A DNA stretch of 64,000 bases from Cliona cf. orientalis (lineage: Eukaryota > Porifera > Demospongiae > Clionaida > Clionaidae). Shown here piece after piece: positions 1-41,777 of the stretch (positions are counted from its first letter, which is position 1; every line of letters starts with the position of its first letter). The notes under the pieces were generated by a model. That model did not search any database, had not been told where the DNA came from, and saw nothing but the letters and a program-made list of their open reading frames with translations. Location: assembly GCA_963930775.1 (NCBI GenBank), contig OZ005705.1, forward strand, positions 1,550,001-1,614,000, in the 5' to 3' direction. Made by a program: the position numbers and the translations under genes.

Positions 1-3000
1 CACCAGACTGTTCAGGAAATGTATGCGGCAAGCAAGGAGTCCTTTATTGAAAGGATCAAGGAGGATTTGAATATTGAGATCATTCAATCTCCATTGACAC
101 GGCAAAATTACAAGAAGAAATTTCACCATATGATCTGCTGGGAAGAAAAAAGACACATTGAGATTCTTAATGAAAAGTAAGTGCATTTCTGTAACTAGAG
201 CTCTGTAGAGCACATACCCCGCGCGCACATTGCACAATCTATGAGTTGCTTTTGTGTGCATGGCTATAATTTTGTGAATTTCAGAAAATTAGTGGAAATG
301 CTGCTTAATTGTACGTAGCTACTGGAGGTCCCGGTGACAAAAAGCACTCTCTCTGCACCAGATCTAGACTACTAGGAGATATAAACTGATACTTGTAATA
401 TTTTTTGTAATAGTATAGCCGTCTTATTATTATGATTTGATTCCATGGGGCTGCAGATTTCAGGTCCGTCAGCGGATGCGAATAGACTATAGATTTCAAG
501 AGCATTTTTAATTTCGACGATCTTTACCAGTCATATTGTTGGCTACTTAGTTGTGCGCATGAGCAGAAAACACAATGGGCATGCATTATGCATTGGTAGG
601 CACTATCAATAGGCATGGTTACCTTAGCCAACAAAAAGGCACTATTTGTGACGCCCGTGGACCATATCCATCGATTTGACGCACAATGAAGCCAGTTTTT
701 TGCCAAATTCGATTGATTCGTTGTGTTTACGAGTCGCTTAGATGCCTACATCTCGAGATACGGCGATTTTTGTGCTCACGACAACGATAACGACAATGAC
801 AACGACAATGACACAACCAATTACTTTACCCCTTGCGCATAATAATGTCATCTCAAATTGAATTTCATAAGAATGTTTGATATAGGTGTAATGGGGTATA
901 CAACCTAGTATTGTATCAGGAGCGACTCAAACCAAAATGGCTTCGGAGATCTACAAGTGATCAGTCTCCAGCTACAGGATTTGTTCGCTATGGAATCATT
1001 GAAGGAATTGATCCTGACAAAATAGCATATGCAACACAAGCAAGTGAAGCTGTTTATATCATGGCAAACAAAGTCGAAGTGAAAGCCAACATCATGAGGG
1101 AGAACTATGATCATACAGATGAAAATTTATACATCGGTTTTACGGCAGAAGGTGTTGCACAGCTGAGAGAAGCATTTCCAGACTATACTAAAAGCAATAA
1201 GCGCTACGATCAAGTGATAGTTGAATTTGAAGTAAAGCATATGTTCTTTGATGGCTTAATCAAATCCGTTAACTATGTTGATCCCCTCATAATTCAACGG
1301 ATACTCCCACTGCCTCAAGATTTTTTGTCCAAGACTTCCAATTTCTTCCGATACAGACATGATATGCATGCCATCATCTCTCAGCTAGATCCAGATGACC
1401 AACTTACTGCACTAAAAGCAATAGCTCAGTGTCCAGCACAGTCACCTCCAATTCTCATTAATGGATCGTTCGGCACCGGGAAGACACGTGTCCTTGCAAT
1501 TGCAGCTTACTACATCATAGAAATGGCTGTGGAGCCAGCTAGAGTTCTAATCTGTGCTCACCATCAGGTTTCTGCTGACAATTTTATCGAGACATATTTT
1601 GGAAACATGATGACCAACAGAGATTTTTCAAAACGAGTCCGTTTAGTCAGGCTTACATCATCATACTACAATGTTCGCAGTGAAAGGTTTTCTAGATTTT
1701 ATACAAATTTCTACAATTTGTGTAAAGAAATGCGAAGTGAAAGAGCTTCAATCACTAGTGGTAATCTTCTAGTTGCCACTACATTTTCTACCGCAATTCG
1801 ACTACGTGAGTTATTTGATCCTGGTTTTTTTACCCATATTCTTCTTGATGAAGGAGCTCAAAGCCGAGAACCAGAAGCCATTGCTCCTTTATCGTTGGCT
1901 TCAAGTGGGACAAAGATAGTCATTGCAGGAGATTCATGTCAGGTAAATGCTTACTATATCATGCATACATACATGTATGTATACAATCTTAATGTAGGTT
2001 GGTCCCGCTTTACTTGTACTTGGTGATGAAACTCGTGCCAGTGGATTCCGGCTATCATTACTTGAAAGACTGCAGCTGGAATATGAAAAGATTGGTGGGC
2101 CAGCCAAGGATTGTTTGCTCACACTATCCACTAACTATCGCTGTCATGAGGACATTCTTGCCATTCCCCACCAGCTGTTTTATTCAGGCTTAAAGAGTAA
2201 AGCTCGACAAGCCAATCCCCACCCAAAAGCTGCCTATCCATTACTATTTATATGTTCCAACCTAACCTCGAATGTGTGCTCATCTGAAATTGAAGCTCGC
2301 ATTTTACTTGAACAAGTGAGCATGTTTATTCAGCACTGGCCCAGAAACGATAGCTCATGGGGTGACTTTGACCCAAAGAAAATAGCTGTTGTTACTTCAA
2401 CACGTCCACAGGTACTGCATGTATACACATTTTTTGCCGTAAATATCCACCATAATACCACCTTCCTTTTTAAATTAGTTGGTTACTACTAGAAATATGG
2501 AAAGAACTGAATGCAGAAATCTCCGTCACACTCGGATGATCACACTATATGAAATTCAGGGTATACAGTCATCTTACAATGTGTACTCAATGTAATTCTA
2601 TTTACTAAGTGCTTAATTCATGTCTTGTTGCTGCTCTTTCAGGTCAGGAGTTTCAGGCTGTTTTTTTAAGTACAACAGAACCCGTTGCTAAAGATGGAAA
2701 TACCCTTAACCCAACCAAGAGTCCTTGTGATCGTTACATTTTCAACACTGTCCTCACACGTGCCAAGTCACTTGTGGTGGTAGTAGGCAGTCCAAGAGTC
2801 TTGTTAAAGACTGAACAACACATGATCAAGCTGTATGGAGCTCAGGGGAAATGCTGGAGCCTCTATCTTAAATCATGCCTTGAGCATGGCACATTGAGTA
2901 TTCCTTCTTTGGTTGAAGCAGACAAAAATGTTACAGAAAGATTTGTTGCAGAATTAGCGGCTAATGTGGGTGCCACTCTCCCAAGTGATCCAAGAAAGTC

Positions 3001-3907
3001 TTCCAGAGCAAATTACAGGACGAAAAGCACCATTTCTAATGTTGCTTCAAGTGAACACGAAATGCGTCGATCAAGGGAAGGAATACACTCTCTTCAGTCA
3101 ACTGCTAGCCAGCATCCAGCAATTTCAGCCAAATCAAGAATCCATTTGGTTGATAAACGTCTGAGTAGTGATGAAAATATTTTCAAGCAAATGTCTCAAG
3201 TTTCCAGGAATATGCAACTAACAAGTTCAAGTTACTCACAGTCTGCCATCCCACAGCAACATCCAATGGGATCAGTGCCTGTGGCAATAAATCCTGAAGG
3301 AAATCGATTATTAAACAGTAACGTTACTGTAAAACAGAGTGTTCAAGAGAATAGGATTAGCGTTGCCAGCAGTGAACGAACATCCAATGCAAGGTCAGAA
3401 AATTCAGCACCCTCACCATCACTCTCAAGGCCAAAACAACGACGGAATGTTGAAGCTCCTAAATCAAGAAGCAGAGGTATAATAGCCGGCAATATTGTAT
3501 AGTATTAATCAAACTTACGGGTGTACTGTATTAGGTGATAATTTTCCAAAACCTCCAATACCGAAGACTCCAGCTGCTTCTTTGGTGACTCTTGGATCAC
3601 CACCTACAGCAGCATCTGCCACCAAAATGTCGTCTCCACCACAGCAACAAAGGAATACTACTTCTAGAATTACTGCTGATACTAGAAGAAATTCAGCAAC
3701 TAAAACAGTGGCACCCTCTCCCAACACACAGGCTTCTAGACCCATACCAGCAGAGCCCACTAAATCTAGGAGAGCAAGTAATGTCAATTACAGTCAATAT
3801 AGTACCACTGTTGATATTTTCCTTATTTTCTAGAAAAATCTAGATCAAAGGTCAATGTCACTGCATCTTCCAGCCATCCCTCACCATCACTAGCTGACTA
3901 TTGGCCG
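1..3907 (+). CDS. UPF1/HELZ2-like SF1 helicase module with Ser-rich tail (5' partial; probably the N-terminal part of the next entry)
   Basis: Exons read at 1-176, 886-1942, 1998-2411, 2479-2560, 2643-3476, 3535-3777 and 3834-3907; lengths sum to 2880 nt, exactly 960 codons, with consistent phases. The first exon encodes a conserved FHHMICWEEK segment shared with the two other helicase copies here. Helicase motifs follow in order: Walker A GSFGTGKTR (about 1465-1490), motif II DEGAQ (about 1849), motif III GDSCQ, TNYRCH (about 2128) and the motif VI region FNTVLTRAK (about 2742). After the helicase core comes a low-complexity Ser/Pro/Arg tail of about 340 residues. By family, this is an SF1 RNA helicase of the UPF1/HELZ2/MOV10 group, acting on RNA in cytoplasm. 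The 5' end lies outside the window. There is no RNB domain in this module. The last exon ends at a GTATGG donor that is phase-0 compatible with the exon at 3958, so this may be one gene with the following entry; read-through without splicing would stop near 3943. Confidence 0.72.
194..842 (-). repeat. Repeat family R1, copy 1 (inside an intron of the helicase module)
   Basis: About 650 bp, reverse-complement related to 21642-22255 and 22256-22828. Shared landmarks are ACTAGAGCTCTGTAGAGCAC at one end, a central block around a TCGATGGATACGGTCCACG-type core, and a TTTACCCCTTGCGCAT end. It makes up almost the whole intron 177-885. No ORF or clear terminal inverted repeat was seen, so it is a non-autonomous interspersed repeat of unknown class. 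Confidence 0.75.
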
Positions 3908-3957
3908 GTATGGACATCAATTTATTTATATTTTTCATTATAATTATTACTCTGCAG

Positions 3958-6900
3958 ACTCTCGGCGATGCAGCTAAGGTAAAAAGTTCTAAGAAAAGAA
4001 TTCCTCAAGAGCCTTTGCAATGTGCAGCACCAACACAAGTTGTTCCTGTCAAATTGCCTGAAGTACACTCTGAGTCCTTCTCAAAGTATAAGAGTGAGCT
4101 TGACATTGACCGACTGAAGCAGCCTTTAACAAGGGAAAGCTACGTTGAAAAATTTCACCACCTTTTATGCTGGGAAGAAAAAGAGCATGATGATCTTTTG
4201 AAGCAAAGGTATATGCATGCTATATTGTACTACATCCATTATATATCATACAGATTAATATTAGGTGTGCAGGTATATATGAAGTAACCATTTTTCAGCC
4301 TGGTTTCAAACCTCACAATTTAGAACATAATTATAGAATTGAGGAATTAATTCGCTTTGGGTACATCTCATGTACTGATGGAGATAAATTATCTTATGCT
4401 AAACAAGCGAGCGAAGGATCATTCATCATTTTGGATAAGCAAACTTATATTAAAGTTAAGCATGTCCATGCTTTTGTTCCGAAAGATGCCAATGCTAATG
4501 CCATTGTATTTGGCCTAACCAAGGAAGCAAATTCAAAGCTTGTGCACTGGTCTACTTTAGCCAGGACCAGGTGGTCTCGTGACTTACAGGTTCACTTTGA
4601 GTTAAAACACTCCTACTTTCAACGTTTACACAGCGCTTTGGATAAGATTACCTCTGAAAGTATCCGGAAGATTATGCCAAATAGTGAGAATTTTGCAGAT
4701 GATAGTGAACAAAGAAGCTGGAATCCAGGAAAGCCAGAGTATGAACATTTAGAGTTGGATTCATACCAACAACGAGCTCTTCGTACAATTTTGAACTGCA
4801 CACCTGGAGCTCCTGTGCTTGTAACAGGTCCTTTTGGAACAGGAAAGACCCGATTGCTTGCTAGAGCAGCATATGAGATACTTAAATCACCAAGGAGCAA
4901 AGTGCTGATCTGTGCCCATCACCAAGCCTCGGTTGATACATTCGTCAAGATTTTGGGTGAAGTCATAGACAATGATATAATGATTCGTGTAATTCCTAAT
5001 GAATCTTATCACTCAAAGATCAGGGATGAATACGATCATCTCTTTGTACCAAGGTATGAAGTGAATTATTCCCTTGAAAATGTCGGAATAAGATTGGTCA
5101 TTACCACACTCGGTACTTCAAATTTGAGGATCCGCTCCAAGTTCTCTCATATCTTAATTGATGAGGGAGCCCAAACAAGAGAGCCAGAAATTATCAGCCC
5201 TCTTCATTTTGCTCGTGAATATACAAAAATTATCATTGCTGGAGACCATCTTCAGGTAATAGCTAATAGTCTATTTTGCATCCCAAAACACAAAATGGTC
5301 GTAATGGAACATGCATACTATTTGATGGCTCATTAATACCATATATAGGTTGGACCTCAGCTTCTGGTGTTGGGTAAAGAGGCACAGGAGCATGGACTTG
5401 CAACCTCTCTCTTGGAAAGGCTCCACAACCAATACATCAAGCTGGGTGAAGTTACCGAGAAACATCTTGCCAGCCTCCTCACAAACCACCGCAGTCAGAG
5501 TGGCATTCTCATGCTTCCTTCTAGCCTGTTCTATGGCTCAACCCTTCAATGCCGAACAAAAGATAAGCCTCACCCTTTAGCTTCCTACCCTTTGCAATTT
5601 ATCTGTACAAGTTTAAAGCAAGCCAAGAGCTGTCCACACAGCACTGACAAACTGGAAGCTGAAATACTTTTGAACCAAGTGAGAAGGTTCGTCAATCAAT
5701 GGCCCGAGAAACAGTGGGGACGAAAGGATCTATCAAGTATATGCATTATGTCTCCATCAGCTGACCAGGTATCTAATAGTGCATTTTGATCCACGGTATA
5801 TATTATATTTCATTTCTTTGTTGCATGTATACAGTTTGCATTAATAAAGAAGACCATGCAAAATAGGTTCAAGGAGCTAAAGGGTATTGAAATATTGAAA
5901 GCGTACGAAATTCAAGGTAATAATAATTATTGGAGATAATATTATTTGTATTCCAGTACTACACTGATTTTTTTTTCTTAGGACGGGAATTCAAGGCCAT
6001 TTTTGTTGGTACTTCAGAGATAACCTATGTGGAAGACACAAATGGTCACAAAGAGGGTGAACCAAAAAATCTCACAAAAAGTGTATCTGATCGTTACGTG
6101 TTTAACACTGCAATCACACGTTCTCAGTATTTGGTTGTTGCAGTGGGGAATCCATTTCTTCTCCTTCATATTGAGAAGTGCATGGAGCAAATCTATGGAG
6201 AGAGAGCAGCTGATTGTTGGAGTCGGTTTATGAAGCAGTGTTTAGAATGCAATTCATTTCATTTTACAGACGAAGCAAAGTTGGAATTTGAAAAAGAAGA
6301 GTTTAGTTCACTAAGGGAAAACTTGTACAAGAGTTTATTTTCCATAGATTCTGAAGAGATTATTGATATTGAAACACCATCTGACAGCATTTTGAATACT
6401 TACAAACGAGAGCTTGAAAAAATCCCTGACTGCAAAAAAGCGAAACTGACCCTTTCAAGCGTCCAGGAGTCTGACCTAGCATGGATCATGAGTGATAATT
6501 TTGATCGAAAAGCTCCTACCACTGATACTGATGACGAAGAAAATGAAACATATGAGGATACATATGAATGTATTTTAGACTGCCATTCTTACCGAAAAGC
6601 AGAAGCGACTCCTATCGATAAACAGAAAAGGATTATTATTATTAGAGGTTCAGGGAATCGGATACCAGCATTTAGTGGTGACACTGTTCTAGTAGGTGTG
6701 TTTCCTAATAATCCAAAAGATAAGTGCTATGGCAAAGTATTAAAAGTAATGAATAGGGGACATGAACCAAGATTTCTTTGTAGAGTTTCTCATCGCAATC
6801 CAGTGATCTTTTATCCTGTTGATGAATTGAATCCAGCATTCTGTAATTTACCTAGAATCTCAAGAGATCTTCTGTATAGAAGAGATAGAGGTGCCGTTGA

Positions 6901-9900
6901 AGTTGAGCTGGAGTCACGAAGGGATGTAGTCGTATTCAGCTCCCATTCAGTTGGTATCAACATCCGAGAAGGGAAGGTTCCTCCCATTCAACAAATCATA
7001 CCCCTTTCAGTTGCTAAAGATATGCTATTCATTGTTGCCTTCATTCAATGGAAGAAGGACTATCGTACACCACTTGGAATTGTTATTGGTGCTATGCCTA
7101 AGGGTTTTACTGCCTTCAGTGCTGAACGACTGCTGAAAATGAAGCACGGAATTGAATATGATGATGACTGTATGAATGAGATGTCTGTAGATGCAGAGCA
7201 TGGACCCGACAGTGGAGAGCTCTACGATCGAGTGTTTACTATAGACCCTGATGGTGCCCAGAATTTAGATGATGCAGTGTCGCTTGTGAAGCAAAGTGAA
7301 TCTGCTGATGGAGGACAAGTTGAAACTTACCAACTTGGCATACACATTGTCAATTGTGCAAAGCACATAGAATATGATGAAGATATTGATAGAGAAGCAA
7401 GAAGAAGAGGAACATCCGTTTATGGAGGAAGAGAAGGAAAAATAATGCAAATGCTTCCAGCTGAAATCCGAGAGAAGTTGTCTCTGAAGCCGAAAAGGAT
7501 TAGGGATGTCATATCAGTTGTTGGCACTGTTGTGATAAGTCCCACCGGAATAGAGGTTCAAGAATCCACTGATTCAATGATTAAGATTGAGCAAGCTCAA
7601 ATTAAATCGTCTATCCAACTGACATATATGACAGCTCAGCAAGTCATGGATGGCATTGATGCTCCTGAATTGATGCCAGAGATACAACTTTTTAACAGTA
7701 AATTAAATCAGCCATCATTATCTAAAACCCTCCAACTTCTTTATAAGATAGCACTTCATCTAAGGAAGAACCGTTTACAATCTGACGCTGCTTATGCCTA
7801 TGATCTCAATGATCCAGAAGATTCTTACTGCTGGCAAGCCCACATGCTCATCGAGGAGTTGATGATTTGGGCCAATTCTGCCGTAGCCGCGAGAGTTCAT
7901 ATTCACTATCCGCATGCTGCTCTTCTGAGAAGACAACCAGAACCCAATCAAGAATCATTCAGTAGCTTCATTGATCATCACAAAAAAGTAGCGAATCTAT
8001 CTCTTTCCCTATCACGTTTATCAAGTGGTGTACAGTGTCACAATGATGGAGCTGAAGAAGAAGTATCCTTTGTCTTGGCTGTCACTACTCTGAATCAAAT
8101 CAGAGAAGCTATATCCACAAAAAATCTGGTTAGGCTAACCAGCTTGATTGCCTCAGACCGTTATCATCCTCAAATTGCAGCAGTTCTCTCTAAATTGAGG
8201 TCACTCTTCCCTAAAGCCGAGTACTGCTGTACCGATGAAGGAGAGGAAGATTCCCTATATCGGCACTACAGTCTCAAGTTAGACAATTATACACACTTTT
8301 CATCACCACTGAGAAGGTATCTCGACATTGAAGTTCAAAGAATGCTTGTGCAATTACTTGAAGCTTCTAAACTTGGTATTCCACCAAAAGAGTTTAATCA
8401 CGATGATCATGTGAAGCTATGCATTCAACTTAACAATAGAGTTAAGAATGCGAATCAATTTCAACGAAGCTTGAATGATGTGGACTTAGCAATCATGCTA
8501 AGTTCTAGCAGTAAAGTTTATGAAGCGTACATTGTTGATAATGTTAAAGGAACAATCGAAATTTGGTTTCCCCAGTTGGAACTCAAGGACCTACCAAAGA
8601 AGGAGAAGAAGATACCATTGAAATTTCTTGGTCCATTTGCTAGCATAAAAGATGAAGATTTACTCAAAAGAGAAAGTCATACATTCCACTGGAAAATGAA
8701 AATCACATCCTTTACAGCCGGGCAGGGTAAATTCATTTTTAAGATCCCAGGGTTATCTATCCATAGTGAGGATACAGATATGGCTGATACCATCATGGAG
8801 ATAGATTTATTAACATGTTATGATGACAGTAGCTCATCAAACTCTACCCTTGCTACTTTGAGCACTGTTAAGACTAAAGCATCTAGACGCACTCCAATAG
8901 CCACAGCAATACCGCTGAATGATTGGAGAAAGGCTTTGAGTTTTGTTAGAGAACCAAGTACTACGAAACTGAAGGTACTAGAAGCAATTTTTCCTAAGCA
9001 ATCTGCTGTCAATCCAGCTGGAACCCCAAACATTGATGCTAAGCTTTCGTCACCCTTTGTTACTGTTAAACATAGAGCAGATTTCAAGCCCCATGATGTC
9101 ATTCAAGTGTGGATGACAAGATCCATGGGAAGATCACTTATTGCTCCAGCTATACAGTTAGTTGAAGTTTCACCTCTTGTGCGTATCTGCGTACAGCATA
9201 ATTCCCATCCTTCCGAGTGTTTCTCTGATGTTAATCTTTCCTATGCCTCTAGAAAGTTCTACTCAGATATTAATGAGTACGTTGAATTATGGGAGAAAAT
9301 CGTGCTGGCAGAGGCAGCTGAGATAAGTGTAAGAGATAGCAGCCCAGTTGTCATTCAAGATGTAACTCTAAAGTGGCCTCACCTCTCCATTCCTTCAAAC
9401 TGTATTGATGAGGAATACTATCAACCAACAGATAGCATTGCTCTATCTCTTCCAGAGAAATACGTTGATAATTGCTCTGAGTTCATAAAATTCAATGAAG
9501 GAGATCTTGTATGTGCAAGATACGGTACAGATCCTCATGCAGAGATAAGAGCCGTTTTCCACATGGTAATTCACAAGATTCAGTATGAAGAGGAGGATGA
9601 AACTAGACCATCCAAGGTGTGGATGAAGTTCATTGGCGAGAATAATAGTAAAGTTTTTGAAAAAATGAAAGCCATTTTGGACACCAAATGTGAACTGCAA
9701 CTAATTTCTTTAAGTACAACCTCTCAGTAAGTTTTCATTTGTTACGTATTAAAATGATATCATTCAACATAAATACTTTAGACGAGTCTACCAGGGCCTT
9801 TTAAAGCTTCTTGATGCCAGTGGGAAGAATAAAGAACAAGAATCTTCTTCTAATCCAAAGAAACCACGAAAGAAGCGGGAAATTAGCAAATTAGTAGCAC

Positions 9901-12900
9901 ATATTGCCCTTGGAAGTCAAATAAATGTTCAAGGTAAGTACTAGAATGTTTAGTTAAGACGTAGCTTAATGCTGAACATATTGTATTGGTATGTGCATAT
10001 TATGTAGTTACTGATGAAAACAAGAAAGCTGCTATTAAAGTATTTAAGGAGCACCTACAAGCTAGACAGATGTGGATGTCACCTAACGTAGTGCTAAATC
10101 GTGTACAAGATGAGGCTTGTAACCAGGCACTTACTAATCCCTTCAAACTGATACAAGGACCACCAGGTATAATAATAGCTAACCCTCAAGTTTAAATTAC
10201 ACATAAGTGCTAATATTTCTGTTCATAGGAACTGGAAAAAGTGAGACAGGAGCTCATATTGCGTATACCTTTGCAATGGCAAACAGACGACTCTCTCCTA
10301 AAAAATGTGTGCTGTACTGTGGACCATCAAACAAATCAGTGGATGTTGTTCTTGGTAAGTTATAGACATATTGATTTCATCATGCACTATTGCTAATGGC
10401 TTGTCCTTTATATAATTTAGAAAAATTTCACACCCTTTGCAAATTGAACCCGAAGCTAAAATTGAAAATTCTAAGGATCTATAACCGAGCTGTTGAAAAA
10501 CAAGACTTTCCTGGTCCTGACAACAGGGAAAAACTGTCAGAATACAAGCTACCAGAATGTGCACCAAACTACACTTTGCATCATAAAATTAGGCAGAATG
10601 GCCCCCATGCTTCCAAATTGAATGAATTTGAGGAGAAATTTCAAACTCTACCACCAGGAAGCGTTATTGATGGAAAGACATACAGGGAGTATCGACAAAT
10701 TTTAATCAAAGCTGAAGATGCAGTTTTAGCTGAGCACTTTGACATAGTTATGTGCACCTGTAGTGAATCATCCAGTTACCGAGTGCGGAGGTGCATCTTT
10801 CCACGGCAGTGCATTGTGGACGAGTGTGGGATGGCAAGTGAGCCTGAATGCATCACTCCTCTCCAGTTGTGTGAGCATGTTGTGCTAATTGGAGACCATA
10901 AGCAGCTACAGCCAGTCATCATGTACAAGCCCGCTGCAGAACATGGACTCTCCACTTCACTCTTTCAGCGATATGCCGAAAAATTTGAGGGTGAGCATAT
11001 CAAGAGACTGACAATACAATACAGAATGGTAAGTAAGGGCCTTATAAATATGTATCTAGGTCAGTAACACTGATTACAATAATTAAAATATAATAGCATG
11101 AAGCAATCTGTGAATTCCCATCAAATCACTTCTACGATGGGCAACTAGAAACAGACGATTCTGTCAAAAGGCGAACCAACCCTGAGACAAAGCTAGATGG
11201 ATTTTGGTCTGGGCCAGAAAGATCACGGTGTCCCATTCTGTTCTGCCATGTTATTGGAAAGGAAGATGACCACAAGACAGGTAGTAAAACTACAGGAGGC
11301 AAGAAGATTGGTGTCGACTCAAAATTTAATGAAACTGAAGCAATGAAAGTGGTAAGATATATAAGCTATTTCATTGGAATTGACGATGCACTAGTGTCCC
11401 AGGCAAGTGCCTAGGTGCTCCCACTCCTGGGTAGCTATAGTTTGTGAATATGTACGTTATTTGTTCTTCTAGTTTGTGCTGGTGCCCCAGCCCCCATGAT
11501 ATGATTGGGGCGAGCCTGAGCGAGCCCCACATAAACGGTACAGCTGTGCGCGAATTGTATATATATTATTATTATTATTATTATTATTATGGTACGTCGG
11601 TCACGCGAAATTATATACCCAGTGATGCTCTACGGACATAAACGCGAAATATTCTATTGCGCATTCTCGTGCATGGGACACGGGCCGTATATACGCCGTT
11701 CTAATTTAGCGAATTGCAAATTTACACTCGAGCTTGATCAAGCCGTACCGCGCCGTACAGAAGCAAGCAGAAGGCTCCAAAGGAGGAGACTCTGAGCGAG
11801 ATAGAGCCTGTCATCAGCTCAATAGCGCAAGGACCAGCTAAGAACACGATAAAGATAGACTAGACATGCTGCTGAGGCTCACTGATGACTCTGATAACCG
11901 TGAGAGGCAATAGTCAGTTGAAACGTTCAACGGTATGTATTGACTGTCGGGCACTGAAGGATGGAGGGGACTATCATGCAGCTGTAGACCTACAGGCCTA
12001 CACGGCACTATGAGACTGTCTGTCATTGTTTGCCAGGCTTGGATCTGTATCAGTGATCTATCGTGCTATGGCTTTATTAAAGTTTTTGAGTCACAGCTAC
12101 TGACAGAGGCTCAGCTCAGGCTCGCCCCAAACAGGCCCTGCATGTCACTAGTATATAGTGTTCAGGTATGATATGCATTATTACATGCGTGCAAGGGGTA
12201 AAGCAATTGGTTTTATCTGTCGTCTGTTATCACCATGAAAATCATCACAGGCAATGAGCAAGTTGTATAATATTACGTATAAGCACCATTGAAATTGTCA
12301 GCATCATTAGGCCAATCAAACTACATTGTTAGTTTCTCGTCCACCCGTTTTTATATTTCTATGCGGGAGGGCGGTCATTATTCATTATTCATTATTCAAT
12401 ATTATGGCATTTTGAGGGTGTGGTTTCCTGGAACCGCCCAAATAATTAGAAGGTTTATAAACGCCAGTGCAGGACCAAGGGCCGAAAAATCTGGAGGTAT
12501 ACATATGCTGATTGGGTCAGTGCCTGTGAAGCTATTGATGAAGCAGATTGGGATTCTATAATTATGACTGAAAACATAGATGATGCGTGGGAAGCTTGGC
12601 TACAGCAATTTATGTCAATTATGAACCAGTTTATACCCAATTGTTCTCTGCAAAATAGACGAAACCTGCCCTGGCTCACAAAGTCTCTGATTAAGTCAAT
12701 TAAGAAACGAAATCTGCTCTATAAAAGAGCGAAGAAATCTGGCAGCTTCAGAAGTTACAAGCTAGCCCGCAATAAGACTCTAGCAGACATCCGATCAGCT
12801 AAACTCTCCTACTTCCGCAAATTAAATCCACGAGATCCCAAAAAATTTTGGAAAGCTGTCAAGTGCCTCAACAAAAGACCCAACTCGATGCCAACACTAA

Positions 12901-15506
12901 CTCTTGGTGACACAACTGCAGTAACAGAAAGTGAAAAAGCGAACCTCCTAAATTCCTATTTTCACTCATGCTTCAACAAGTCTCATACTCCGATAACACC
13001 CTCAGCCTGTTTGCGACTTTCTCCTGCAGCGAATCTTCTCTGTTCTGAAGACGAAGTGTTTGACCTCTTGGCAACCCTGGATGTGTCCAAGTCCACTGGA
13101 CCTGACGGAATCTCAGCCAGGATGCTGAAGTTCACAGCAACCAGCATAACCCCTTCAGTGACTAAGCTGTTCAATCAATCAATTATTCAGGCTCGAGTAC
13201 CATCCCTTTGGAAAAAATCTGTTATCGTTCCTGTCCCGAAAACATCAGATATAACTACACCAACTAATTATCGTCCAATCTCACTCTTACCTATCATCAG
13301 CAAACTCCTGGAAAGACATATTTATTCACTTATTCTACACCACCTGCAAGCAAATGACATCCTGACAACCTCTCAATGGGGATTCTTGGAGGGAAGGTCC
13401 ACTGTAACTGCTCTAATAAAATGCACAGATGATTGGCTAAAAAGTTTAGAAGACGGAAATGATACGTGCGCAATTTTCTTTGACTATCGTAAAGCTTTTG
13501 ACTCTGTCCCTCATTGCCCACTGATAGTGAAACTACGTTCCCTTGATGTCGACGATTGCATTGTCAGCTGGGTCAAAAACTACTTATCTGAAAGATGTCA
13601 AGTTGTTGCAGTTGATGGAGTGGAATCGGATCCCTTGCCAGTCCTCTCTGGGGTTCCCCAGGGCTCTGTTCTCGGACCACTACTCTTCCTAATTTACATC
13701 AATGATCTTCCACATGCTATTCAAGATGAATTTGCCCACTTAAACCTCTTTGCTGATGACCTTCTCCTTTATCGAATAATTACCTCTGCAGCAGACTATC
13801 TCCTCCTGCAAGAAATGATTTGTATAATTGAGCAATGGACATCAGATAATTACCTCAGTTTCAATACGTCCAAGTGCAAATGTATGATTATCTCGCGTAA
13901 GAGAAATCCTCCTCTGCCAGATATTCCCTTACAGTTGTGTGGAAGTGCCCTGGAAAGAGTTGACAGCTACAAGTATCTCGGAGTCTTGGTTTCTTGTGAT
14001 CTATCCTGGTCCGTGCATGTTGAATTTGCCTGTCAAAAAGCTCGGCGAGTATTGGGCTTGCTCTATAGAAGGTTTTATGGTCAAGCATCCCAGGATTCGT
14101 TAAAACAGCTATATCTATCTCTTGTACGACCGCATTTAGAGTATGCGAGCCAGGTGTGGGATCCTCACCTCGCCAAAGATAGAAATGCCTTGGAAAAAGT
14201 GCAAAAATTCGCGTGCAAATTGGCTACTTCTAAATGGAATAGCAGCTATGAGGAACTGCTGGATTTGACAGATTTAAAGCCCCTCCAGGACAGAAGGTTA
14301 GAATCTAAACTAGGACTGCTGTTCAAGTTGGTTCACAATCTCTGCTTCTTCCCGGATAACTCGTGGTCTTTCCGAACTAACAGCAGGTGCAACAGGAACA
14401 CCAACTCCTTGCAGTTGTCGAGACCATTTGCTCGTACTAATGCCTATATGGCCTCCTTCTTCCCCCATACTGTGGCAAACTGGAATCTGTTGGACAATAA
14501 TGCTGTAACAGCATCATCATACAAGTCCTTCATGCAAACTGTTAGTAACTAGCTAATTAATTTTAACTGCTCTCATTTTGTTATATATACACGTAGTTTA
14601 ACTAGGGTACACACCTGTATTAGCTTTAGTAGCTATTGTGTATCCATTGCATAGTATTGCATAAAGTATTATAAGCAAAAATTAAACACTAAGTAGAAAA
14701 AAAAAAAAGATTTCCTGCGCGAAAAATGTTTGGAGGAATTGGGAGCACTTGGGGAGATAATTTTTACACCGGCACGCAGAATGGGTCAAAACACGAGATT
14801 TGACATGAGAAAATTTTGATTCACGCCTTAGAATCAAAGTTACGGCCCTTTGAAGTTTCCCCATATGTTTGTACAGGGAAGCCATGCGTTTGCAATGTTT
14901 CCGCCCACGCGCTACGTGAGGGGCGGGGCCACGCCCGCACATAAACGTGACGACCTTTACCAACTTTTTGACAAAATAGAAATTTAGGCTGCCTGCTTGC
15001 ATTGTATGGTTCCACTATGCACCCAGCTCCATTATATGGTGGTTTTTGGATATATTTTTTTTTTCTGCTTAGTGTTCTGGTCGCCTTGTTATACACTAAT
15101 TATACACTAAGTAGAAAAAAAAAGCAAATTTAAATAAATAATCTAATTCATGGGGGGTTTGGGAGCACTTGGGGGGACAATTTTTACATGGGCACGCAGA
15201 ATGGGTCGAAACTAGAGATTTGATCCCGGGGAATTTTGATTTACGCCTTAGAATTAAAGTTACGGCCCTTTGAAGTCACCCCATATGTTTGTATAGGAAG
15301 CCATGCATTTGCAATGTTTTCCGCCCACGCGATACGTGAGGGGCGGGGCCACTCGCGCACATTAACGTGACGACCATTACCCACTTTGATCAAAATTGAT
15401 GTATAGGCTGCCTGCTTGCATTGTATGGCTCTACTATGCATCCAGCTCAACTATGTGGCCGTTTTCAAACAATTTTTTTTTTCTGCTTAGTGTTCTGGTC
15501 GCCTTG

Positions 15507-15540
<34 letters not shown>

Positions 15541-18500
15541 AGCAAAAAAGAGGTGTGGCTGGTGTTTCAAGGCAATAATGAAGGCAGATGCGGTAGGTAA
15601 AAACAGACGCGGGAGGTGACGAGAAACTAATATTCAAGTTTGTGTGGCCTTATACTTCAAATCATTTACTAGCAAGTCCACGAGCATCACGAACACTGCA
15701 TTATTAACCCTCGCCGCAAAGCGTAGGCGGAGGGTTACTGCAATCGTTTGGCGATTTTTGTCCGTCCGTCCGTCCGTTTGTTTGTTTGTTTGTCCGTCCG
15801 TCCGTCCGTCCGTCCGTGTGGTAAGGGTCGTCTGAGAGAAAGTACGCATCTGAGGATTACCAAGCATCAAGGAAGAGTGGTTACGTTAAGTCCTGCCCAG
15901 TGGTATAATAGTGTGCAGCTGTGGTTGCCATTCTGTGTTGTCAGTGCAGTGACAGTGTAAACAGGCAGTGGCTCTCAATTGAGTGCATAATTGAGTTTAA
16001 GTAGTCACAGAGGCTTTCAGTTATTATAGTGACATAGGCAGGTGCATCCCCCTAGCCTATATCATGCACTGACTCTGAAGAAAACAGGACTACCTCAGGT
16101 GCATGGTATATAGTATCGAACTAGATACATACTACCATATTATGGTAGTATGTATCTAGTTCAATACAAGGCTCCTTATATATTGAGCAGGCATACACAC
16201 AGAGATATGCTAGCTAGTATAGATCTACATGTCACGTGCATGAGTCATGCATGCGTGTAGCGGTGAGGGTTTTGCACTCCTGTGCATTCATTATTGGCTG
16301 TGGCTATACTCACTGCAGGCCAGCTGCTTCTGCTCATGTGCACTTCTGGCCTGGTATTTATAGCATGCTGCTTTCTGTGCAGATATAGATGAAGATACAG
16401 GGTAGTTAATATGTGCTCTAGAAAGCTCTATAGATAGTTTTGACTCTGGTTTTTGATCAGTAGTAATATTATTATGGTCTATAGCTAGCTCAGTGTGAAC
16501 CTTATCTGCTGCAGATTGAAATTGCTACCACTCTTTATAAAGTTCATGGAGTGAACATGGACCAGATAGCCGTTCTTACACCATACTCAGCGCAAAAGAC
16601 CCTCATCAATAAGAAAATGAAAGAAGCCAATCTTAAAATTAAAGTAGCATCTATTACTGAAAGTCAAGGTGAAGTGCACATTCATGACTATGATTGTACA
16701 ATGTCATGATCTTTTTGGTGTTGCATCAGGTGATGAGTATGGGATAGTTATCCTATCAACAGTGCGTTCACTTCCAGAAAAGGAAATTGCCAACCCTGAC
16801 CATGTTCAAGCTGATCGTGGGTGGCTCTATGAGACACTGGGATTTCTTACGGATCCTCATCAGCTGAATGTTGGAATTACAAGAAGCAAGTATGGCCTCA
16901 TCATTGTGGGTAAATGACCACTATATTCAATGTGCCATAATGACATTAATAATATTATTATTATCACATATAGGAAATCAGCTGTTGCTCAGATATGATG
17001 AAAACTGGAAAGCTCTTATTGAACACTACACTCAGAAGAAATGCTTACTAATGAATGGAGAGGAGTTTTGTAAAAGTACGACATTAAAACCCTCCCCCTG
17101 GACACTCGTTAAAGGTCATAGCTACATAAAGGTGTATGTATAGGTTATATACCGAGGTGCAGGTCTCTACGCTATTTACACAACCGAGGGCCGAAGGCCC
17201 GAGGCTGTGTAAATCGCGTAGAGACCGAACCGAGGTGTATAACGGACTTGTACCATGGGCTACGTGGCCCTGACGACGCATCCTCATGGTAGCAACGACA
17301 GCGCTGGCTATAAAAGTCGGCTCGAGCAGCACCCAGCAACACAGCAAAATAAAAAAAAATTTCGAATCGCCGTCATGACCGTGAAAGCCGTCTAGTATTT
17401 AATGCACCTACCGTCAGCTCATGGCCAGGCCTTCAAGAAGACCAAGATGCTTCGAAATTTCACAACGATAGCTTTCTTGTTGGACAGTGCAGTACAAAAT
17501 GTGCCTTCCTAGCCAGGATCTTCCTCGAGCTCCAAGATTCGCCGACTCAGCATCCAATTACTCCGCCCACTTATGGCAATTAACCTTCAACCTCACCATA
17601 GTATAGTACTATAGTACATACGCATAGTACTATCACAACGCAATGCGTAGTATATACAACGAGTACAGTCCTACTAGTGTGCCCTTAGGTAGTTATCAGA
17701 CCTTGTATATAAATACAAGGTTTGATAAGTGATTTATCAACCCCATATGGAGAAATCTGATTGGTCAGAATTTACAACCATGGTACAAGGAATATTATAG
17801 CCCCATCATACATTCTACTATACATGCTTGCATGCATGCACAATTAATATTTGTTATTATCTTCCATGCATCTTATGGATTCTTGCCAACAGTGGCCTAT
17901 AGCATCAAGGATTTGCTTTAGTACTCTATAGCTATTAGCTAGCGTTTCCACACAAAAAAATGAAGTTTTTCAAAACTTCTCAAAACTCTGGTAGGACGAA
18001 GATATTCTTGGACTAACACTAATCCTCACTCCAGGTCACGCCCCCACGTTCATTTGCCGAGATATCGAGACTTTAATTATTCTCCAAATTTTGGTAAAAT
18101 TCGCCATAACGTGGGGTACCATCGTTATACAGTATGGTAAATGCTTCCTCATACTGTCACTGGATGAGGACGATCAATTTAGTAAGGCAGCCACAGTAAA
18201 TCACAGATTGGAGCATATTAACCATCTGGCGCGACAATTTCGCCAAAAAACGCGAAATTTTTGCATCTCCACGTAAGAGTAATTTTGCACAGTATCATTC
18301 GAGATTTAGGGACCGTCCCAGTAGGCTAGCTAAATGCTGCAAAATGAGCGGTTTTTGGAAAGTTTGATTTTTTCGTTGGATACCCTATATTAGCTATAGT
18401 ATATAATTGTAGTACTGTATAGAAAATTTTTGCCAACTCATCCCCAGCTCTCGTTGATGAAATTTTTATCCATGCACAAAAATTGAAACCTTTCAATATC

Positions 18501-20208
18501 TCTGTAGTGTGAAAGCATATAGGTGAAAGTAGCCGGTGAAAATTTTCAGCGACACCATAATAATAATAATAATATAATAATGCATTAGCCAAAATCAAAT
18601 TTTAATGCTAAATATTGAACTATAGCATTGTAAATTTTACAGCTCGATCTACTTACTTCAATGAGGCAGAGAAGAGAGCTCAAGTTCCCTTTATGTGTCA
18701 TCATTTACTTGAATGTGATTACAATGCTCTTGAATACACCATTGAGGATCATGATATCACTCTGAGAATTCCAGAGGGAGCAGTGTCTAAGGGGGCAAAA
18801 TTTCACATTGAGATTGGTGTAGCAATGTATGGCCCGTTCATCTTTCCAGAGAAGACTCAAATAATCTCACCTATTGTCTGGCTTTGTGTTCAAGAAAGTG
18901 TTGAATTGAAGAAACCATTGCGATTAATTCTCCCTCATTTTCTTGTTGGCCTAAGCAGAAAAAGGCTACAATACCATAATATCGCATTTGCCAAGGCTAG
19001 TCATGAATATTCTTTTGAGAATGGCCAAATGATGTACAAGTTTGAAGATATCGGTGCTCAAGTTCTCCTTGCTTCAAGTGGAAATAAAGGTTATGGAGTG
19101 ATAAGATCAACACACTGTTGCTTTTATTGCATTGAGGCTAATCATACACCTGAATTAGCCAGGGATGCTGGTTACTGCCTGGCTAGAATTGAGAACAATA
19201 GTGTATTTTCACATCAAAGAAATGAAATTTGCTTTACTGCTGTTTACTTCCTCAGAACCTGCATCAAGGTGAGAGTATGATGTCATGTATGTATACGCTG
19301 ATTATTGGATTTATGCAGGTCATTTTTACTCTTATACCTTCAGGCTTTGGAGGAGCAATTTCCAGAAGAAGATGGTTATAAAATTACTCGCTATGATGCA
19401 TTTACGTTTAACATAGAACAACCTGAAGTATGTATCACGATTGTTCCATGTGATGAGAGTGACCAATATACGATAGCACTGGAACCTCTATCAGCCAAGG
19501 TATATGTTAGTGTAGTTATTGGAATTAACATGCACTCAGCTGCACACATATAATTATCCAGATTAAAGCATCTGAAATTGATTTTTGGAGAGAAGGATTT
19601 GATAGGATGCAACTAAAGCACATGACAAAGGTGTATCCACCTCGAGTCAAGATGACAATCATATTAAGAGATTTTGAAAGTCATAAACTTTTAATAAAGT
19701 TTTTAGGCTGCTCAACTGATTGTCAGCTGGACACTGAACTTATTTTGCCATTAGGTACGTGCTGAATCAATGCAACTGAAATAATTTTATTATTGTTGTG
19801 TAATAGGTTCTCTATGTTTAAGTCGTTCCTCATCAGCGACAAGTGGATCAGTTCTGGAACATCGATCACATACGGTATTTCCAGCTGGTAAGCCAGTAAA
19901 ATCCAATAATGATCTAAAAATACAACTATACTATTACTGTAGATGATAAGCCAGAATTAAAAGATGCATTCAAAACACTGCTTCCTCTTGCATCAAGCTG
20001 GAAAAGTATTGGCACTCTACTTGGGCTACGATCTGATATTCTTGATGGAATCCAATTAGATGAAAGAAGCACTGTGGATCAATTACAGGCAGTAACATCG
20101 AAATGGCTTAAACAGGTGAACCCTCCACCAACATGGAAAGTATTAGCTGATGCTATTGAGGAAATTGATGAACAAAAGGCTCAGGAGCTGAAATGCACTT
20201 TAGCATAA
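3958..20208 (+). CDS. HELZ2-like helicase-RNB-helicase protein fused to ZU5, UPA-like and Death domains
   Basis: Exons: 3958-4208, 4265-5255, 5349-5768, 5835-5916, 5982-9726, 9782-9933, 10008-10166, 10229-10354, 10421-11028, 11097-11351, 16515-16668, 16730-16909, 16974-17075, 18643-19268, 19344-19499, 19562-19754, 19807-19887, 19943-20208. They sum to 2848 codons plus stop with consistent phases. Helicase 1 has GPFGTGKTR, DEGAQ, GDHLQ and FNTAITRSQ. The 3.7-kb exon carries a cold-shock-like region and an RNB domain with FTIDPDGAQNLDDA and SSPLRRYLDIEVQR. Helicase 2 has GPPGTGKSET (split by an intron), DECGMA, GDHKQLQPV, QYRM and LNVGITRSK. This order is that of vertebrate HELZ2, an interferon-linked RNA helicase/3'-5' exoribonuclease. 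The C-terminus is a ZU5, UPA-like and Death-domain block. The fusion rests on matching splice phase (donor at 17076, acceptor at 18642) and the lack of an initiator Met at the start of the ZU5 exon. If the donor is not used, the protein ends at 17143 and the ZU5-Death part is a separate gene. Confidence 0.78.
11385..12155. mobile_element. MITE-like element with subterminal inverted repeats
   Basis: Near one end lies TTGGGGCGAGCCTGAGC (about 11505) and near the other its inverse GCTCAGGCTCGCCCCAA (about 12113). Similar CACTAGTG/CACTAGTA words flank the element. It contains an (ATT)n run at about 11567-11589 and no convincing ORF. It sits in the large intron of the HELZ2-like gene. Confidence 0.5.
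12450..14600 (+). mobile_element. 5'-truncated non-LTR retrotransposon (CR1/Jockey-like LINE)
   Basis: A single open frame runs from about 12450 to the stop at 14550-14552; the first ATG is at 12564 and gives 662 residues. Reverse-transcriptase motifs are intact: NYRPISLLPIISKLLERHI, FFDYRKAFDSVPH, GVPQGSVLGPLLFLIYINDL and the catalytic FADDLLLY, followed by YKYLGVLVSCDLSW and VRPHLEYASQVWDP typical of CR1/Jockey-group C-termini. The upstream in-frame linker RYTYADWVSACEAIDEADW is the usual region between endonuclease and RT, but the endonuclease itself is missing: an in-frame TAG at 12447 and unrelated sequence precede it. It is inserted in sense orientation in the intron 11352-16514. The unbroken RT frame suggests recent insertion. 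Confidence 0.85.
14687..15074. mobile_element. MITE family M2, copy 1
   Basis: About 388 bp bounded by inverted ends CACTAAGTAGAAAAAAAAAA and its near-inverse TTTTTTTTCTGCTTAGTG. It is about 80% identical by eye to the neighbouring copy at 15105-15492 in direct orientation. Non-coding. Confidence 0.7.
15105..15492. mobile_element. MITE family M2, copy 2 (tandem with copy 1)
   Basis: Same inverted ends as copy 1 (CACTAAGTAGAAA / TTTCTGCTTAGTG). Both copies are followed by TTCTGGTCGCCTTG; after this copy a poly-A run of about 32 nt (15508-15538) follows. The shared flank suggests segmental duplication of element plus flank, or insertion into a related element. Confidence 0.68.
15705..16271. 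mobile_element. MITE with AACCCTCGCCGC terminal inverted repeats
   Basis: Left end AACCCTCGCCGC (15705-15716) matches the inverse of the right end GCGGTGAGGGTT (16260-16271) with one mismatch. Inside are a (TCCG)n/(TTTG)n microsatellite at about 15759-15816 and a perfect 45-bp palindrome at 16118-16162. No ORF of note. Confidence 0.7.
16118..16162. repeat. Perfect 45-bp palindrome (22-bp arms, 1-nt centre)
   Basis: Left arm 16118-16139 starts GAACTAGATACATACTACC; right arm 16141-16162 is its exact inverse; only 16140 is unpaired. Lies inside the MITE at 15705-16271. Confidence 0.92.
17162..17226. repeat. Foldback (imperfect hairpin) in the intron between helicase 2 and ZU5
   Basis: The sequence from GGTCTCTACGC through TTTACACA to the centre GGGCCGAAGGCCC is mirrored by TGTGTAAA and GCGTAGAGACC. 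Flanking copies of ACCGAGGTG on both sides suggest it is part of a foldback element. Confidence 0.75.
17249..17799. mobile_element. MITE-like segment bounded by CTTGTACCATGG inverted repeats
   Basis: CTTGTACCATGG at 17249-17260 and its inverse CCATGGTACAAG at 17788-17799, with TATAA-like words just outside. No ORF. The remaining intron to 18642 is A/T-rich and shows nothing recognisable. Confidence 0.45.
18643..20208 (+). CDS. ZU5 - UPA-like - Death-domain exons (3' end of the HELZ2-like gene, or a separate gene)
   Basis: Listed apart because it could be annotated as its own gene. The first exon (18643-19268) encodes a ZU5 domain: ITLRIPEGAVSKGAKFHIEI is the typical opening strand pair, and it ends near THCCFYCIEA. 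Exons 19344-19499 and 19562-19754 look like a UPA-type beta domain (CITIVPCDESDQYTIALEPL). A short Ser-rich linker (19807-19887) follows, then a Death domain in the last exon (SWKSIGTLLGLRSDILDGI; PPTWKVLADAIEEID) ending in TAA at 20206-20208. ZU5-UPA-Death is the module of PIDD1, UNC5 and ankyrins; Death domains recruit adaptors or caspases. The first exon begins in phase 1 and its first in-frame ATG comes well inside the exon (about 18692), so an upstream coding exon is expected; the 17075 donor fits. The domain calls are firm for ZU5 and Death, weaker for UPA. Confidence 0.75.
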
Positions 20209-24545: not shown

Positions 24546-24839
<294 letters not shown>

Positions 24840-26098
24840 TAATTATAAGTTAAACATGACCATACTGGGGATCAGGATCACAATTTGATTTTCCTCAAAG
24901 TTAATACTGTTCAGGCCAACCTAAGCCCAGCAATAATGCTTAGGTGCCTCAATCTTGAGAACCATGGGTGGTAGGGTGCATGTACATGTAAGACTTAGTA
25001 TGATATACATCACCTGTGCATGACATTCATATGAATTTTATTTTCTGGGTGTGTATGTCTAGTCAACCAGGCTACACAGTTGTATATAATTACAATCAAG
25101 ATTGCCATTTCTCCATAGATAGTGAGTATCCAGTTTCTGGGGTGACTTATGATTGTGTGGTGCCACAATGGTGACCTTGTATTGAGCATATCCAATAAAG
25201 ATAAGCTATCTGGGAATGACTACTAAATTCATCTATAGTTCATCTATGGGTAACTTTATTCACTGGGTTATGTGGAAATACTCCATTGCACACTCTGTAT
25301 TTGGCACCTGGGATTACAATGGAACTGGTGAATGTTAGCAAAAAAAGCAGAATTCCAGGATACATGGATTACAGTGGTTTGTCTAGTTCAATACTGTTAG
25401 TGAGAATTTCTGCTAATGTGGGCCACCACCTGCTGATATTCTTAGGCATAAGACCCCTTCAGCTGCCCACCCTAATAAATATATTGTGTGGCTGTTGTGG
25501 CTTGTTGGTGAAATATCCCTGGACTTTCCCTCAGTAGCTGTTGTGACTAATGACCCAGTGAGGGATTGTAGCATTTTTCCGTCAGCAGCTGAGCTGTGAC
25601 CTGGGAAGGTTGCGGTAATGCAGTAGTACCCTGCTCTATAGATAGGTGGAATTGTGTTGAGACAATGTGTTGCCAGCCAGTGTTTATGTGTGTGTACAGT
25701 GTTTAAGGTTGAGAGAGATAGGAGGAATAAGAGGGGGCATCACCAGCTTGGAGGAGTCCTCTCTCTCTTCCCCTTCCATCTCTACTCCCCCCTGTCTCTC
25801 TCTCTCCCCTTTTTCGTCTCTACTCCCTGCCCCCTCGTGTACGTAAGTCTATAATATCTATGATTTGTGTAAATAGTGACGATAGTAGGAGCTGAAATGT
25901 TTTGTTTATTGAGAGCTAAGCTTGTGTTTCCTAGATGGATACTAAATAAGGGAGTTTTTGATACAACACCTTCTCTACAAGGAAACTTTCACTAAGGCCA
26001 CTAATACATACAATCATGCTCTTTGAGGCAGAGGAATGCACATTACCTGATACCGTGCTGAAACTCTTTGCCCCCGGCATTATTGGTGTTAATATTGT

Positions 26099-38600: not shown

Positions 38601-39534
38601 TGCTATAATATATTATTATCCAACTATTTTGCTGATACGTAGCATGAAGAAATTTGTGCATTTCCATCAAAGCAATTTTATAAAGGTGAATTGGAAACTG
38701 CTGAATCAGTAAAGAACCGAACAAATTCAGAAACCAAGCTCGACGGGTTTTGGCCTGGGCCAAAAAAATCAAGGTGTCCTATTCTCTTCTGCAATGTGGT
38801 TGGAAAGGAAGGTGATTATGAGACAGGCAGCAAAGCAGTTGGAGGGAAGAAAATCGGTATTGGGTCCAAATTTAACCAAAAGGAAGCTTACAAAGTTGTA
38901 AGAATTTTCTTTGCCTTATCACTTCCATGACTGTATCAATCACGGTTTACACTGTAGGTAAATATAGTGAAAGTTCTCACTAAGAAACACAGAGTAAACA
39001 CCAGTTGTATTGCTGTTCTCACACCATACTCGGCTCAAAAGAATCTCATTGAAGAAAAGATGAAAGAAGCAAAGCTAAACATCAAAGTTGCATCAATTAC
39101 TGAAAGCCAAGGTGAGATACATTTTCTGAGTAACTAGCTATCATTTGCTCTCAATGTGAAATTCTGTTAACTGCATGAAAATTTGCTCGTCCAGGTGATG
39201 AGTATGGCATAGTTATTCTCTCCACTGTGCGATCATTGCCAATTAAGGAAATTGCAAATGAAAAGCACGTTCAGGCAGAGCGAGGGTGGCTACTAGAGAA
39301 CCTTGGCTTTCTCACTGACGAGCATCAACTCAACGTTGGTATCACCAGGAGCAAATACGGCCTGATTATTGTTGGTAGGGTCAATCTTTTAAATAAATGT
39401 TATAGTTAGTGGATGCCAATTCTTTCACACTAGGTAACAAGAAATTATTAACTTATGACAATACGTGGAAAGCTCTCATCCAACACTATGAAGAGAGGGA
39501 GTGCTGTGTAGAAGGGGATACATTTTGTGTTTAA
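26647..39534 (+). CDS. HELZ2-like protein: CCCH zinc finger, helicase, RNB ribonuclease, helicase
   Basis: Exons: 26647-26857, 31131-31210, 31282-31496, 31560-32568, 32625-33050, 33116-33197, 33369-37107, 37285-37436, 37504-37671, 37762-37890, 37948-38570, 38643-38897, 38958-39111, 39195-39374, 39434-39534; 2507 codons plus TAA, phases consistent. The first exon has a CCCH finger (C-X5-C-X4-C-X3-H, residues LCDRRPSCRELHCTFPH) like those of HELZ proteins. Helicase 1: GPFGTGKTR, DEGAQ, GDHLQ, TNYRCH, FNTAITRSK. RNB: FTIDPDNAQNLDDA and SSPLRRYIDIEVQR. Helicase 2: GPPGTGKSET, DECGMA, GDHKQLQPV, QYRM, LNVGITRSKYG. It is a close paralogue of the gene ending at 20208, with the same intron positions, but it terminates in GDTFCV-stop without ZU5/Death. 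By family it unwinds and degrades RNA. The link from exon 1 across a 4.3-kb intron rests on phase and the finger's family; transcription might instead start near 31079. Confidence 0.82.
27261..27701. mobile_element. MITE family M3, copy 1
   Basis: Bounded by TACATCCCGAATCCC and GGGACTCGGGATGTA inverted ends. Non-coding. Lies in the first intron of the second HELZ2-like gene, next to copy 2. Confidence 0.78.
27717..28114. mobile_element. MITE family M3, copy 2 (tandem)
   Basis: Ends TACATCCCGAGTCCC and GGGACTCGGGATGTA. Very similar to copy 1 (shared AAAGAATTCGGCCTCGCGATG and ATGGCGGCGTACAGTA); both are followed by GTCTAAGTTGTTCA, so the flank was duplicated too. Confidence 0.78.
28131..28602. 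mobile_element. MITE family M4 with perfect 15-bp terminal inverted repeats
   Basis: ATGCACTCAGTAGCT at 28131-28145 and its exact inverse AGCTACTGAGTGCAT at 28588-28602. A diverged relative lies at about 20400-20760. Confidence 0.75.
28958..29395 (-). pseudogene. Ulp1-like (C48) cysteine protease relic
   Basis: Minus-strand pieces in order. WLGDDHVYLAQALLKKQFP (about 29290-29395) is the conserved block before the catalytic domain in transposon-type Ulp1 proteins. After an intron-like gap, HIGSDHWVTSTSIGREV gives the catalytic His and VYDSKFG the Asp (about 29120-29232). Then QQQKGSSDCGVYAMQYM gives the oxyanion Gln and catalytic Cys, ending at TAA 28958. The last part is one frame off the previous part near 29030, and an in-frame TAG occurs there, so the copy is broken. 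Such proteases are often carried by DNA transposons. It lies antisense inside the first intron of the HELZ2-like gene. The identification is from motifs only. Confidence 0.65.
29396..31130. other. Rest of the first intron of the second HELZ2-like gene
   Basis: No supported gene. A G/C-richer block at about 29530-29860 repeats words such as CGTCCCCC and CCCGGACG, resembling 26970-27120, and is likely repeat-derived. A palindrome AGCTCTAGATCTAGAGCT lies near 30646-30663. Confidence 0.4.
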
Positions 39535-40642: not shown

Positions 40643-40801
40643 CTCTGAGATTTATGGCCACTCCCACTTATGCTCCGCGGTACACGCTCAGATGCATACT
40701 ATAGGTCATTCTTCCGTATACAAATTTCTTCATAATGCAGTGGATGCATGCCTTAGCAACAATATCAGCTATGCACCTGCTAGAAAAGCAATAATAAATG
40801 G

Positions 40802-41700: not shown

Positions 41701-41720
41701 TATATTGTTTTCCCCGTTAC

Positions 41721-41732: not shown

Positions 41733-41777
41733 AAATATTGATACGCGAGACACTAATCACATGATCTCAATCGCAGT

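Follow-up and report, generated by a model that had tools for sequence, protein, structure and literature searches.

Cliona cf. orientalis carries, on the forward strand of the 64,000-nucleotide stretch of DNA analysed here (the window; contig OZ005705.1, positions 1,550,001 to 1,614,000), exons for a HELZ2-like helicase/RNase followed by exons for a ZU5-UPA-Death module. The original prediction, made from the DNA letters, joined the two into one protein. The question raised by this locus is whether the exons form a single gene, or whether two genes lie side by side.

Exon structure and the HELZ2-like half

Re-derivation of the exon table gave 18 predicted exons between 3958 and 20208 (+ strand), with GT-AG at every border and a single reading frame. 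The joined exons come to 8547 nt, corresponding to 2848 codons plus a stop that occurs only at the end, in agreement with the sum first proposed; leaving the last helicase exon at the phase-1 GT at 17070 instead of 17076 gives 2846 codons. Fifteen of the 17 introns measure 52-93 bp, and both long ones carry inserts. The domain order along the model is helicase, RNB, helicase, ZU5, UPA-like exons, Death. This order, also part of the original prediction, was recovered by Pfam searches of exon frames and spliced parts, and by exon homology for the UPA-like part. The domain search of the conceptual protein that the prediction had called for matched the helicases, RNB, ZU5 and Death, and gave no Pfam match for the UPA-like part.

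Helicase 1 is encoded by exons 3958-4208, 4265-5255, 5349-5768 and 5835-5916, and runs on into the large exon at 5982-9726, which contains the end of helicase 1, OB_HELZ2 and RNB. Helicase 2 follows in exons 9782-9933, 10008-10166, 10229-10354, 10421-11028, 11097-11351, 16515-16668, 16730-16909 and 16974-17075 (all on the + strand). Pfam searches of the exon frames identified RNB (2.9e-55) on the large exon, and OB_HELZ2 (PF25049; 6.3e-09, 36 bits against a cut-off of 29.3), besides AAA_11 and AAA_12 in helicase 1 and AAA_11 in helicase 2. Searches of the spliced parts identified AAA_11 (8.8e-19) and AAA_12 (9.6e-21) in helicase 1, and AAA_12 (6.9e-49) and AAA_11 (1.5e-40) in helicase 2. Helicase 1 contains the motifs GPFGTGKT (Walker A) and DEGAQ, and Walker A is kept in both helicase modules. 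The RNB segment IDPDGAQNLDD contains equivalents of the three catalytic Asp residues of human HELZ2, D1346, D1354 and D1355 (PMC9839780): D1003, D1011 and D1012, in TIDPDGAQNLDD, show equal spacing and were matched by eye. From these sequence features the helicase-RNB-helicase half can be firmly assigned to HELZ2, with a predicted 3'-5' exoribonuclease activity. The helicase 2 intron at 11352-16514 measures 5.2 kb, swollen by a reverse-transcriptase-like ORF at 12450-14552 (recognized by eye) and by other inserts.

The 2848-codon model has no start codon; its first exon, at 3958, follows a phase-0 acceptor. Upstream on the + strand lies a further SF1 helicase, U (Pfam AAA_11 2.3e-17, AAA_12 4.1e-08), with exons 886-1942, 1998-2411, 2479-2560, 2643-3476, 3535-3777 and 3834-3907 placed by Pfam and junction scores, and a further exon at 1-177. 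The U frame leads into exon 3958: joined from 886 to 5255 by way of 3535-3777 and 3834-3907, it stays open for 1315 codons, and the introns between U and the HELZ2-like gene measure 50-56 bp. Because the frame continues upstream of exon 3958, a protein joining the halves would span at least 2848 codons. Helicase U may belong to the same gene as the HELZ2-like part, possibly giving a three-helicase protein, or may be a neighbour. The HELZ2 paralog in the window, paralog B, has the same 5' border, with an exon start at 31282 and the preceding exon ending at 31210. The initial part of U is closest to a helicase on contig C15 (41%). A CCCH-like finger, recognized by eye, lies upstream of U at 6911-7141 of locus L051.

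The ZU5-UPA-Death tail and its family

The tail begins with the ZU5 exon at 18643-19268, which, as originally described, is entered in phase 1 and lacks an early Met. It continues on the + strand with two UPA-like exons (19344-19499 and 19562-19754), a Ser-rich linker exon (19807-19887) placed by the exon table and relatives, and the Death-domain exon, including the stop (19943-20208). On the exon frames, ZU5 scored 21.9 bits (Pfam cut-off 21) and Death 23.2 bits (cut-off 22.6). When the tail was scanned as one spliced piece, both dropped slightly below these values, ZU5 to 20.4 bits and Death to 19.1 bits, each under its cut-off. Among the ZU5-Death family members scanned, four of five match each of these Pfam families at E up to 0.1. 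Neither the UPA-like exon frame 19302-19550 nor the same part of the spliced tail had a Pfam match, and no UPA structure occurred among eight PDB matches in a sequence search up to E 10. The two middle tail exons were assigned as UPA-like because the same exons, in the same phases, are present in other ZU5-Death genes, with homologous exons in L047-L050.

Sub-threshold PDB sequence matches were obtained to the death domains of THOC1 and RIPK1, and a PDB profile search gave no match at E <= 0.05. A single-sequence AlphaFold model of the Death exon contains five helices (pLDDT 64.5), and Foldseek with this model gave no match at E <= 0.001. The model of the ZU5 exon alone (AlphaFold, pLDDT 32.6) was not usable.

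The genome searched comprises 217 Mb in 149 contigs. ZU5 matches number at least 65 in one search and at least 71 in another with this exon as the query (itself included), merging to at least 101 loci, and Death matches number at least 150. The tail intron phases (0,0,1,1) are identical in L048, L049, L050, L036 and L053, and the tail is 50-53% identical to four relatives, which are 47-63% identical among themselves. To judge by its exons, the tail is intact, without decay, and belongs to a large ZU5-UPA-Death family. Copies of ZU5 with internal stops are present elsewhere in the genome. No relatives outside this genome were confirmed in viral contigs or prokaryote genomes.

The ZU5-UPA-Death cassette is promiscuous in this genome. 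In L036, L016, L015, L030 and L009, ZU5 is read in the same unbroken frame as a long N-terminal part. By eye, this part is GTPase-like in L036, zinc-finger and membrane in L016, and membrane in the other three; a Pfam search of the five frames named ZU5 only. Two of the 25 AAA_12 loci are followed, on the same strand and within 5 kb, by a ZU5. The expected number is 0.029, a value that assumes an even spread, which the clustered ZU5 genes violate, and that comes from locus tables giving lower bounds. In L054, ZU5-UPA exons are preceded, ~1 kb away on the same strand, by a NACHT-LRR frame (1130-5721; NACHT 8.3e-23), and a NACHT-ZU5 combination has been reported in early animals (PMC12909245). 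L054 is a possible NLRP1-like gene, and its stretch yielded no Death exon. Among relatives of the ZU5 exon, the third best is L052 (C2:9775000-9782000), upstream of which lie two matches below their cut-offs, one COR-A-like (24.7 bits, cut-off 35.3) and one Death-like (21.6 bits, cut-off 22.6). When spliced, L052 contains two in-frame stops, and it is perhaps decaying.

A candidate second fusion on C15 (L042/L043, C15:6976500-6990499) was not relied on. There a CCCH/helicase gene, a duplicate shortened relative to the copy on C9, is followed after 3.4 kb by a ZU5-UPA cassette of the same orientation, with an undefined junction. This neighbour pair could be a coincidence, the C15 ZU5 being one of two copies. 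The C15 cassette is followed by a weak subtilase-like piece (14.9 bits, below the cut-off). Behind the C9 helicase gene, on the same strand, are exons resembling an eIF2-alpha-kinase-type kinase (L044 3490-7618, by eye).

The junction: one protein or two genes

In the ZU5 exon, the open frame starts 12 codons ahead of the conserved block, and the first Met occurs only at MCHHLL. The 15 residues ahead of this Met are 67% identical (40/60) to four relatives, compared with 57% (428/748) for the rest of the exon; these relatives, L047-L050, are the first, second, fourth and fifth best ZU5 matches rather than a random sample. The 56 base differences within those 45 nt fall mainly at third codon positions (33, against 11 at first and 12 at second positions). 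Among seven of the eight best ZU5-exon matches (C19:2536451 was left out), Met is absent upstream of the conserved block in four, and available in three (L050, L052, L054). L049 has a single phase-1 acceptor at the ZU5 exon start. Because the pre-Met stretch shows protein constraint and a Met is absent, an upstream coding exon is needed.

Ahead of the ZU5 exon, no exon of fitting phase is visible other than the last helicase exon. Its phase-1 donor at 17076, named in the original prediction, was found again, together with other phase-1 GTs at 17070 and 17115. The contested donor (17070-17077, + strand) is the GT at 17070 or 17076, scoring 4.6 and 4.7 bits; the GT at 17115 is poorer (2.8 bits). 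Seven of 27 local real donors score lower than these two (leave-one-out scoring on the same 27), and 17 of the 86 GT sites between 17000 and 18700 reach at least their level. The junction donor is usable but mediocre. The ZU5-exon acceptor at 18643 scores 7.5 bits, ranking second of 103 AG sites. Agreement of phase alone at the helicase/ZU5 junction would occur by chance in ~1 in 3 cases.

The gap between the two exons contains two high-copy interspersed repeats on the + strand. Repeat 1 (~17135-17789) has at least 27 further copies at 85-97% identity, and repeat 2 (~17937-18390, borders approximate) at least 12 at 95-97% identity. The non-repeat part amounts to ~460 bp in three pieces of 59 bp (right after 17075), 147 bp and 252 bp. 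A genome search found no second copy of the 147-bp or the 252-bp piece; the 59-bp piece was covered by the repeat search only. This unique part exceeds the other insert-free introns of the model in length, and comes close to the 587 bp that is the median distance between genes in the compact genome of the sponge Amphimedon (PMC4773876). The gap contains 19 pieces running from an ATG to a phase-1 GT. Eight have a positive donor score, all inside the two repeats, leaving, among single-exon leaders, no positively scoring candidate for a separate ZU5 first exon outside the repeats.

Four HELZ2 paralogs were compared, namely paralog B (31282-39531, + strand), a tandem sister that served as the control and stops right after helicase 2, and the genes at C12:8751229, C12:5968918 and C12:8149599; the count leaves out RNB loci at C11 and C9:4.93 Mb. 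All four lack a tail. Three stop 1-2 residues past a conserved Phe, and C12:8149599 stops 20 residues past it. A stop at 17143 would put the end of the window gene 24 residues past this Phe, not far from the 20 of C12:8149599. Since the 17143 stop sits in repeat 1, it is repeat-derived sequence. The window gene lacks the stop that three of the four paralogs have just after the Phe, which may be taken as weak support for a fusion. No ZU5 match was present behind paralog B within the window, and among the four paralogs only C12:8751229 has a ZU5 within reach on the same strand, 18.5 kb downstream.

A genome search with the junction-spanning protein (39 matches) revealed no retrocopy or joined copy. 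Four ZU5-side matches (C2:9776780, C3:1602287, C4:1644522 and C14:6983161) extend past the junction by 4-16 residues; they were rejected, as no helicase sequence was present at these loci. A katanin-like AAA ATPase, recognized by eye, precedes both HELZ2-like genes (L051 2579-6616, and ~24546-24842 of the window). The katanin-like and HELZ2-like pair is apparently tandem-duplicated, with ZU5-Death exons after the first only. On the - strand of the window, 40259-44007 contains four similar short secreted-looking frames, GH25-lysozyme-like by eye, which form a small tandem family.

We favour a fusion over two adjacent genes, because the ZU5 exon requires an upstream coding exon and the unique ~460 bp contain no credible alternative. 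We put at about one half the probability that a HELZ2-type protein gained a C-terminal ZU5-UPA-Death part by splicing its last helicase exon into the neighbouring cassette. What stands of the single-protein claim is the coding constraint up to a Met-less acceptor with no other credible exon upstream; the tailless paralogs, the mediocre donor and the shortness of intergenic gaps of the Amphimedon kind count against it. These last points suit two adjacent genes, an arrangement that is possible though rather doubtful, in which a HELZ2-like gene would end at 17143 or close to it. The ZU5-UPA-Death adaptor would then be a gene of its own, either with a first exon in the gap, perhaps within a repeat, or starting from the Met codon that the last helicase exon has at 17051. 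All four paralogs end within 20 residues of the junction point, fair-donor candidate first exons do occur within the repeats, and ZU5 exons with a Met exist, though L052 may be decayed and L054 is the locus where no Death exon was found. Short intergenic gaps are usual in Amphimedon, and two genes ~460 unique bp apart would be ordinary by its median (PMC4773876). Two genes are harder to reconcile with conserved coding sequence that reaches the acceptor, with a unique gap devoid of positively scoring single-exon leaders, and with a HELZ2 stop that would have to come from a repeat.

Both forms might also be made, the tail being optional: a long form that carries it, and a short HELZ2 polyadenylated within the intron. 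The frame is open to 17143, poly(A)-signal-like hexamers occur at 17083 (ATTAAA) and 17348 (AATAAA), and a weak donor would suit inefficient splicing, but ~2 such hexamers are expected in the gap by chance (a hand estimate from base composition), and we consider this improbable. It is more improbable still, to the point of being hardly credible, that the cassette is an unexpressed fragment that has lost its first exons. No first exon of its own is recognizable and stop-containing copies occur elsewhere, whereas this copy has five intact exons with canonical sites, and is as similar to its relatives as they are to each other.

Relation to known sensors and a possible mode of action

RIG-I and MDA5 combine an SF2 helicase with N-terminal CARDs, and are not known to carry an RNase or a ZU5-UPA part. 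They resemble the fusion in concept, as an RNA helicase with a death-fold signalling domain. Human HELZ2 shares with the sponge model the two SF1 helicase modules around RNB, a Walker A motif in each, the three catalytic Asp and an OB-fold, whereas a ZU5-UPA-Death tail is not described in the available part of that source, and the sponge locus has an extra in-frame helicase upstream (PMC9839780). NLRP1/CARD8, with its FIIND, and PIDD share the layout of an upstream part followed by ZU5, a UPA-like part and a death-fold domain (PMC3210808). The sponge model differs in its helicase/RNase N-terminal part, in ending with Death (as in PIDD) and not CARD, and in the sequence at the autoproteolytic cleavage motif, which is HFS or SFS in PIDD and NLRP1 (PMC3210808). 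Aligned by eye, this site reads HCC (residues 2566-2568) in the sponge model, which does not match the HFS/SFS motif with its buried Phe; in several relatives it reads HFC. UNC5 receptors also have ZU5-UPA-Death with the cleavage-motif Phe replaced (Leu-677 in UNC5b; PMC3210808), but carry a membrane receptor part in place of the RNA enzyme.

Fusions of TRADD-N to Mov10, DDX60 and RLR-like helicases, or to UPA-ZU5, are reported from marine invertebrates (PMC8195603). They too join RNA helicase/RNase parts with death-signalling adaptor parts, whereas the adaptor and the helicases are different and RNB is not mentioned in the text available from that source. A literature search that most subscription journals lay outside found nothing joining HELZ2 with ZU5, or HELZ2 with invertebrates and a death domain. 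Transcripts of the sponge D. avara have been called HELZ2, in a report whose available text contains neither ZU5 nor death (PMC11229196). If real, the fusion would vary a known theme, an RNA helicase with a death-fold adaptor in an NLRP1-like layout, and would not constitute a new category.

In such a protein, the helicases and RNB might bind and degrade foreign or transposon RNA, while the ZU5-UPA-Death part would be closed on itself, as in UNC5. Engagement of RNA, or clustering, could then open the tail and expose the Death domain, which might recruit Death-domain partners and lead to cell death or an inflammatory output. Cleavage of the PIDD/NLRP1 type is not expected, because the HFS/SFS site reads HCC. 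The idea of a PIDD/UNC5-type switch would therefore be kept in its UNC5-like form, a closed module appearing to fit better, and cut-and-release is unsupported by the sequence.

Human HELZ2 is the product of an interferon-stimulated gene that restricts LINE-1, for which the helicases mattered more than the RNase (PMC9839780). We tentatively picture the sponge gene as encoding a single cytosolic RNA-unwinding and -degrading protein with its own Death output, an NLRP1-like layout on an antiviral exoribonuclease, in which a mobile cassette was spliced onto one HELZ2 copy as one case of a wider habit, in this genome, of placing the cassette behind different sensor parts. If this is true, RNA handling would be linked directly to death-fold signalling within one chain in an early-branching animal, and the locus would show how immune sensors come together through exon-cassette exchange.
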